This document shows, one piece after another, positions 20,450 to 21,060 of a DNA stretch of 38,369 nucleotides. The position numbers and the translations under genes were made by a program. The DNA is from Candidatus Moraniibacteriota bacterium. GTDB lineage: Bacteria > Patescibacteriota > Minisyncoccia > Moranbacterales > JAPLXC01. The stretch lies in contig JAPLXC010000016.1 of NCBI GenBank assembly GCA_026396275.1, positions 1 through 38,369 on the forward strand, read 5' to 3'. Position 1 is the stretch's first letter; the number at the start of each line of letters is the position of its first letter. Under the pieces are notes generated by a model. That model saw only the letters and a list, made by a program, of their open reading frames with translations, was not told where the DNA came from and did not search any database.

Positions 20450-20625
20450 ACTTTCTTTAATGTCATTCCCGTTTTCGCTCGCCCCGCTATAGCTCTGGTG
20501 AAGCGAGCCGGAAATAACCAATGAGTTACTAAAGAGTTCATGGCGTCTAACACCCTTTAGTGGTGCTACGGCGAACCCGTACTAAAAACACCTCGGCCTT
20601 GCGCCGCGCCCGACTGCCTTGACTA

Positions 20626-20696
20626 TCGGGGTGGGGAGAATCGAACTCCCGCTACAAACACCCCATGCTTGCGTACTACCACTATACTACACCCCG
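20626..20696 (-). tRNA. tRNA-Pro (anticodon GGG)
   Basis: Acceptor CGGGGTG pairs with CACCCCG. The D arm is GTAT/GTAC with loop AGTGGTA. The anticodon stem CAAGC/GTTTG encloses the loop ATGGGGT with anticodon GGG. There is a 4-base variable loop, then T arm GGGAG/CTCCC with TTCGATT, and discriminator A. All stems close. CCA is not encoded. The first 10 bases overlap the end of the GIY-YIG gene, whose TAG stop is bases 8-10 of the tRNA. Confidence 0.95.
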
Positions 20697-20941
20697 AAAT
20701 TGCTCAATAATTTTTTTAATTCATTATATCCCTTGTGTGTTTTGAAAAATTTTTCCCTTGCTCTAGCTTCCTTTTCTTCTTCAAATTCTTCCTGATATAT
20801 CAGCACCAATGGTCTACGATTCCTAGTTGATCCAACTATTCCACGATTATGTTCATTGATTCTTCTAAGTAAACTATTTGTGCTTCCAATGTATCTCTTT
20901 CCATCTTTTTTGCTTTTTAGAATATAAACAAGCCAATTCAT
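20687..20941 (-). CDS. GIY-YIG domain nuclease, single domain
   Basis: 84 residues: MNWLVYILKSKKDGKRYIGS with the paired VYI...YIG motif, an Arg near residue 26 (LLRRINEHN), and the catalytic Glu region EKEARAREKFFKTHKG. It belongs to the short YhbQ/UvrC-N-like group. It lacks any extra DNA-binding domain. The upstream side is a truncated tRNA-Pro 5' half (20952-21013) and the last codons plus the stop are made by the acceptor stem of the intact tRNA-Pro. This arrangement suggests a mobile or homing origin. Confidence 0.9.
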   Translation of the reverse strand: MNWLVYILKSKKDGKRYIGSTNSLLRRINEHNRGIVGSTRNRRPLVLIYQEEFEEEKEARAREKFFKTHKGYNELKKLLSNFGV

Positions 20942-20951
20942 ATTTTTTATT

Positions 20952-21013
20952 CATACTTGCGTACTGCCCCGGGCCTACGGCCCGTAGGGCCGGGCCCACT
21001 ATACTACACCCCG
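20952..21013 (-). pseudogene. Truncated tRNA-Pro 5' half with GC hairpin insert
   Basis: From 21013 the minus strand repeats the first 18 bases of the tRNA-Pro exactly. It is then interrupted by a GC palindrome (20966-20995; arms of 13 bases with one mismatch) and resumes AGTACGCAAG-T-ATG (20965-20952), matching the tRNA to the third base of the anticodon loop with one substitution. After that the sequence is the GIY-YIG leader. It cannot form a tRNA. Confidence 0.8.
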
Positions 21014-21038
21014 GTAAAATTATGCCGCCGATGAGACG

Positions 21039-21060
21039 ACTACTATTACACTACACTCCG
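21039..21060 (-). pseudogene. Diverged tRNA-Pro 5' fragment
   Basis: CGGAGTGTAGTGTAATAGTAG (from 21060) agrees with the tRNA-Pro 5' end in 18 of 22 positions. It stands 26 bases ahead of the second fragment, on the same strand. It is likely an older copy of the same duplication. The sequence after it (TCTCATCGGCGGC) does not complete a tRNA. Confidence 0.5.

Follow-up and report, generated by a model that had tools for sequence, protein, structure and literature searches.

Homing endonucleases spare their hosts by splicing, as in introns and inteins, or by an intergenic position, and to our knowledge only engineered gene drives carry a complete spare of the gene that they break. Islands moved by tyrosine recombinases insert at tRNA genes with gene function kept, the integrase restoring part of the gene. 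Among the systems closest to the locus described here, SegB of phages T4 and T6 is a free-standing homing endonuclease of the GIY-YIG family that is encoded in the tRNA region (PMC2988022; PMC13096335). It cuts tRNA-containing DNA and drives the amplification of a tRNA-nuclease unit, which its authors put down to microhomology of the gene's 3' end with the 5' end of the tRNA (PMC13096335). In the rRNA genes of CPR bacteria there are insertions that contain GIY-YIG ORFs but are not introns of group I or group II (Tsurumaki 2024, PMC11270868). REP elements are palindromes of 20–40 nt that are dispersed outside genes and in some cases accompanied by a cognate nuclease gene; their transposases, the RAYTs, are of the HuH tyrosine type (PMC2817692, PMC3116915). 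Finally, Cleave-and-Rescue and Home-and-Rescue drives are synthetic CRISPR constructs (PMC7951863, PMC7968924).

Here we describe a locus of a Candidatus Moraniibacteriota bacterium, within a window (the whole stretch of DNA analysed) of 38,369 nucleotides, in which a short GIY-YIG gene stands between a palindrome-broken 5' piece of a tRNA-Pro gene and an intact tRNA-Pro gene. As with SegB, the GIY-YIG gene adjoins tRNA genes, and the available text on SegB offers a precedent for the nuclease-driven spread of a tRNA region and for tandem amplification of tRNA and nuclease; however, SegB is phage-borne, and that text describes neither a palindrome-interrupted tRNA half nor the nesting of one tRNA in another. 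The rRNA insertions share with our locus a non-intron GIY-YIG ORF and the same bacterial radiation, but their target is rRNA, and the word tRNA is absent from the main text of that study, so no rescue tRNA is described there (PMC11270868). The palindromes resemble REPs in being short and dispersed, one of them being common to several loci. In contrast to REPs, they break tRNA genes beside an intact tRNA of the same type, and the gene beside them encodes a GIY-YIG protein, not the HuH Y1 transposase of a RAYT. The present insert also differs from tRNA-gene islands in carrying a whole tRNA and in being a GIY-YIG insert of ~300 nt without an integrase. Engineered rescue drives likewise join a nuclease to a rescue copy of an essential target, a likeness that is an analogy of mechanism only. 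The nuclease family and the palindromic repeats are of known kinds. Searches of the open-access literature gave us no report of a mobile unit that disrupts a tRNA gene, carries a whole replacement and is nested up to three deep, nor any description of tRNA-in-tRNA cassettes or of units made up of a GIY-YIG gene, a palindrome and a tRNA.

The tRNA-Pro locus

Every part of the layout reported by the first-pass annotation, namely two 5' tRNA fragments, a palindrome, a GIY-YIG gene and tRNA-Pro(GGG) on the minus strand, is present (Table 1). The identities of the diverged fragment and of the half interrupted by the GC palindrome were reproduced, and the final codons of the ORF and its TAG stop are indeed bases of the intact tRNA-Pro.

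Table 1. Features of the tRNA-Pro locus, in positions of the window
Feature	Position	Strand	Evidence
Diverged 5' tRNA-Pro fragment	21039..21060	-	18/22 against intact tRNA-Pro
Broken 5' tRNA-Pro copy, bases 1-18	20996..21013	-	18/18 identity
GC palindrome (hairpin), 30 nt, in D-loop of broken copy	20966..20995	-	
Broken tRNA copy continued, reaching anticodon loop	20952..20965	-	
GIY-YIG nuclease ORF, 84 aa	20687..20941	-	PF01541, 63 bits (cut-off 22.6)
Intact tRNA-Pro(GGG)	20625..20697	-	ARAGORN; Rfam tRNA, 59.5 bits
Weak tRNA-Pro 3'-half remnant, anticodon arm to T-loop	20571..20603	-	Alignment score 21

The diverged fragment, whose score was matched by none of 2885 random windows, is probably the relic of an older insertion round; the score of the 3'-half remnant downstream of the intact tRNA-Pro was equalled by four of 2902 random windows. 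In loci of this kind the first copy of the tRNA is broken by the palindrome and the intact tRNA, presumed to be the rescue copy, remains, the two being often identical over the duplicated part. Here the two blocks of the broken copy agree with the intact tRNA-Pro at 31 of 33 positions, a match that at the locus itself fits replacement and local duplication alike, and no native 3' acceptor partner for the broken tRNA-Pro was found in the window.

It had been proposed that the break lies inside the anticodon loop, where group I introns and their nucleases enter tRNA genes. It turns out that the palindrome lies in the D-loop and that the resumed piece merely ends in the anticodon loop; an ATG within this anticodon-loop remnant is in another frame, so it is not the start of the GIY-YIG ORF. 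The proposed link to group I introns is not supported either, as neither these nor any other Rfam intron family gave a match at the locus (E up to 1). A decayed group I intron, or a permuted or split tRNA that is spliced, would agree with the anticodon-loop breaks seen at some loci; given the lack of an intron match, the intact tRNA that adjoins the break, and breaks that also fall in the D-arm and T-loop, we consider this origin very improbable.

The encoded protein belongs to the GIY-YIG superfamily (Pfam PF01541, E=3e-17), and its catalytic-type residues Y6, Y17, R27 and E63 are invariant among 16 tRNA-linked proteins. The solved structures nearest in sequence are those of UPF0213 proteins, followed by the structure-specific nuclease SLX1 and then I-TevI. 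The protein is a catalytic domain without the long DNA-binding part of typical homing nucleases, and tblastn matched it to nothing in phages or plasmids, so that a phage or plasmid vector was rejected.

Recurrence in the order and in other phyla

The host genome (810 kb) contains eight short GIY-YIG genes and 47 tRNAs over the cut-off. Five of the eight genes terminate where an intact tRNA of the same strand begins (Pro, Trp, Gln, Glu and Val), and all five have upstream a broken 5' tRNA piece that contains a GC-rich palindrome. GIY-YIG genes beside tRNAs, which the first-pass annotation had suggested seeking in related genomes, proved to be common: in a survey of 37 genomes of the order, which yielded 102 short GIY-YIG ORFs with UvrC left out, the stop codon of 29 lies within -45 to +15 nt of a tRNA start, for 11 tRNA types, against a chance expectation of ~0.15 of 102 by our own arithmetic (~47 tRNAs per 0.95 Mb). 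All tRNAs listed within 500 nt of those ORFs are on the same strand, which establishes co-orientation. About two thirds of the short GIY-YIG ORFs are without such a tRNA.

In most of the tRNA-linked loci a 5' piece of the same tRNA type, interrupted by a GC palindrome, precedes the ORF, which the complete tRNA follows; the carriage of a same-type tRNA is established. The upstream piece is often an exact match to the adjoining intact tRNA (35/35, 34/34, 28/28 and 25/25). Strong hairpins (score at least 24) are found upstream of 34% of the short GIY-YIG ORFs, compared with 5% of control windows. The sole gene of the insert between broken and intact copies is the GIY-YIG ORF of ~85 aa; an integrase is absent.

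Other arrangements were also recorded. One GIY-YIG gene without a downstream tRNA (L001, G000:C17:1671-1868) lies between the inverted repeats atccagcagtgaaaattcgaa and ttcgaatttctactgctggat; a 16S rRNA match (L042:1399-2660, G017:C9) contains a short GIY-YIG ORF at about 1501-1713; another such ORF (L088, G002:C35), near 1004-1250, is just 5' of a same-strand tmRNA at 1330-1768; and in L100 (G020:C37) two tandem nuclease-free units, each of a broken tRNA-Ser 5' end and a palindrome, are upstream of an intact tRNA-Ser.

A tree of the 102 proteins clusters by tRNA type across families, with 16 changes against a shuffled mean of 24.2 and none of 200 shuffles as low. This clustering fits site-specific homing, and it also fits a selection for rescue, in which a cassette with tRNA X survives only in gene X. 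If the latter applies, the 84-aa domain need not recognize one particular tRNA.

The layout extends beyond the order. When 84,980 species genomes were scanned, an alignment of three of the tRNA-linked proteins being the query, 345 relatives were obtained, of which 80 were kept, and the layout was found in Curtissbacteria (Pro), Scalindua (Asn), Elusimicrobia and Ignavibacteria (Cys), Omnitrophota and Neomarinimicrobiota (Ser), and Bacteroidota (Arg, Pro). It is also present in Flavobacteriaceae bacterium 14752 (Arg), where the broken 5' piece is followed by the palindrome and the ORF, and these by an intact tRNA-Arg and a 3' tRNA piece that ends in CCGAGGTC. Most of these records are metagenome assemblies, and tRNAs and palindromes are difficult to assemble, so that an artefact of assembly or binning at repeated tRNA sequences might be suspected. 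However, the layout recurs in dozens of independent assemblies, with open ORFs and a conserved rpmG-Trp synteny, and the flavobacterial record is not labelled as a MAG; we find an artefact scarcely credible.

Empty sites, nested tRNA genes and palindromes

The gene cluster Thr-Tyr-Thr-rpmG-Trp-secE is conserved, and in most genomes the gap between rpmG and tRNA-Trp is a plain spacer. The same gap holds a GIY-YIG gene in G000, G003 (twice), G007 and G017, and in G006 it holds a broken Trp piece and a palindrome, with no more than the end of a GIY-YIG gene; in G011 a broken Trp piece is 5' of the tRNA and the GIY-YIG gene is 3' of it. G017 (occupied) and G030 (empty) are members of one genus. 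Likewise, at the tRNA-Tyr site of one genus, a GIY-YIG gene is present in G020 and absent in G055, G057, G058 and G026. Occupied and empty alleles of one site were thus found at the rpmG-Trp, Leu(tag) and Tyr sites, and establish the presence or absence of the insert at these sites.

The tRNA-Leu(tag) site also reveals which gene was broken. In G067 and G065 the native gene is uninterrupted (GCCCAGG...CCTGGGC). In G014, of the same genus, the native tRNA-Leu 5' part is broken by CCTGCCTGCCGGCAGGCAGG and followed by a GIY-YIG gene and then an intact tRNA-Leu, the acceptor stem of which is GCCGCGG...CCGCGGC, unlike the native GCCCAGG of the broken copy. Similarly, the broken 5' acceptor strand differs from that of the intact tRNA in L085 (Tyr), L005 (Trp), L008 (Val), L176 (Trp) and L192 (Thr), and its pairing partner is found downstream in a tRNA-like 3' context, which is strong in L008, L176 and L085 and weaker in L192 and L005. 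Since native halves surround a different intact tRNA, the insert split the native gene and brought the working copy with it. These loci establish insertion into tRNA genes, and there is good support for the arrival of a spare same-type tRNA with the insert.

At most GIY-YIG loci the acceptor of the broken copy equals that of the intact tRNA, and many broken copies are identical to the adjoining tRNA over 25–36 nt, as would be expected if a tRNA had been duplicated in tandem, the spare copy had decayed and a GIY-YIG gene had landed later in the spacer, with vertical descent and no cassette. This history is improbable, as it is contradicted by native halves around a different tRNA, by empty sites within one genus, by the invariable position and strand of the ORF, and by nested cassettes with inverted repeats.

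Such nesting also occurs without a nuclease. In the host genome tRNA-Val(tac) (L011) is enclosed by the inverted repeats CCCCGCACCAAA and TTTGGTGCGGGG, and this unit lies inside the anticodon loop of a second tRNA-Val, with halves (GGATCCT.../...AGGATCC) on either side. Comparable single nestings were found for Gly(ccc), also in L011, Ile(gat) in L013 and Leu(caa) in L026. At tRNA-Ala(cgc) (L023:1560-1870, G000:C1) three genes are nested via their anticodon loops, with inserts bounded by inverted repeats: the outer is GGGCTGT/ACAGTCC, the middle GGGGACA/TGTCTCC and the inner, which is intact, GGGCTCA/TGAGTCC. Flanking inverted repeats with a score of at least 12 enclose seven of 46 own tRNAs, compared with about 1 in 386 with shuffled partners. 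The repeat TGGTGCGGGGCAAG is present in 14 of 131 genomes, in several of them beside a tRNA that has a 3' half after it, and at other places with no tRNA. Arms of the TGGTGCGGGGCAAG inverted repeat also occur 50–120 nt apart with no tRNA enclosed (L311, L335 and others).

An unrelated family of 203-aa ORFs, with an HTH-like N-terminus and no Pfam family over the cut-off, includes G000:C17:2955-3560 (L293), G011:C34:40363-40968 (L294) and L263 (G056). About 15 of its 19 matches have a same-strand tRNA directly downstream, including the tRNA-Tyr of the host genome. G056 has a native tRNA-Tyr 5' piece, an ORF of this family and then a different intact tRNA-Tyr; G058 has mostly lost the ORF and kept the different tRNA-Tyr. 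The family is possibly a second homing-type nuclease with the same trick.

Repeated and nested insertion is established by these loci. The earlier proposal of repeated insertion that leaves an intact tRNA each time therefore agrees with the same-genus occupied and empty sites, with the native halves around different tRNAs and with the nesting; its further idea, that the tRNA is rebuilt each time, holds in the sense that an intact tRNA is left, but the element brings a whole replacement and the old gene is not rebuilt. Nor is the anticodon loop the sole point of entry: clusters of breaks are seen in the D-arm as well as in the anticodon loop, and some breaks fall in the T-loop. A strict preference of breaks for unpaired loops was not significant in the GIY-YIG loci (25 of 36 against 62% expected, p=0.25). 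That first account overlooked that the palindrome recurs as part of the element and that some versions lack a nuclease.

The palindrome CCTGCCTGCCGGCAGGCAGG was found in 53 of 131 genomes, which have up to 18 copies. Its excision leaves a junction that can be read as tRNA at 10 of 30 loci, compared with 2 of 1800 random cuts; these junctions are mostly without a GIY-YIG gene. Together with the gene-less inverted-repeat tRNA cassettes, this is what one would expect if the palindromes and inverted repeats were themselves the mobile element (REP/MITE-like), with machinery elsewhere and tRNA genes as preferred target, and the GIY-YIG gene were a passenger or late arrival. Against this, similar nucleases go with similar palindromes among loci of one tRNA type (Mantel r=0.52, p=0.0002), although not significantly across types (p=0.07), and the presence of the unrelated 203-aa family in the same pre-tRNA position makes gene-carrying versions recurrent. 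We rate such an element as unlikely, if a serious candidate.

In L008, L005, L068 and L176 the nuclease-tRNA unit is bracketed by the same palindrome. A single palindrome family common to all elements was rejected, the sequences being different, as was a general target-site duplication at the palindromes, since a 5-nt repeat (GTCTC) flanks the palindrome in G007 and G017 only.

Proposed mechanism and its meaning

We take the locus, with a probability of roughly 0.6, to be an inserted cassette, assisted by a nuclease, that disrupts a tRNA gene and supplies a rescue copy. A palindrome-marked element with a short GIY-YIG gene and a complete tRNA would enter a tRNA gene of the same type; the old tRNA would remain as a broken 5' piece, sometimes also as a 3' piece, and the tRNA of the cassette would take over. 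We infer from the sequences a role of the nuclease in insertion: its target may be the tRNA gene, or a hairpin form of it, and the cut may then be repaired by copying the cassette into the break from a cassette-bearing copy. The type match would arise because only insertions that supply the lost tRNA survive, and the element would persist and be hard to lose, since its loss would remove an essential tRNA. The cassette model gives no account of how the intact tRNA escapes cutting.

By analogy, such a cassette would in effect be a naturally occurring homing element of the cleave-and-rescue kind, with a spare copy of the gene doing what splicing does for introns and inteins. Whether it amounts to a categorically new class of mobile element seems to us evenly balanced; the class would destroy an essential tRNA gene and become indispensable via the replacement carried, exist across phyla in GIY-YIG, HTH-domain-ORF and nuclease-free inverted-repeat forms, replace tRNAs serially and act as a natural cleave-and-rescue drive. 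The flavobacterial strain 14752 carries a cassette, and should it be obtainable, the idea might be put to a bench test.

If the cassette model is true, a whole spare copy would be a third way for homing endonucleases to spare their host, and some of the short GIY-YIG genes of candidate phyla would have a role. It would also account for tRNA replacement and tRNA pseudo-halves in bacteria with small genomes, and for same-type tRNA genes that differ between close relatives.
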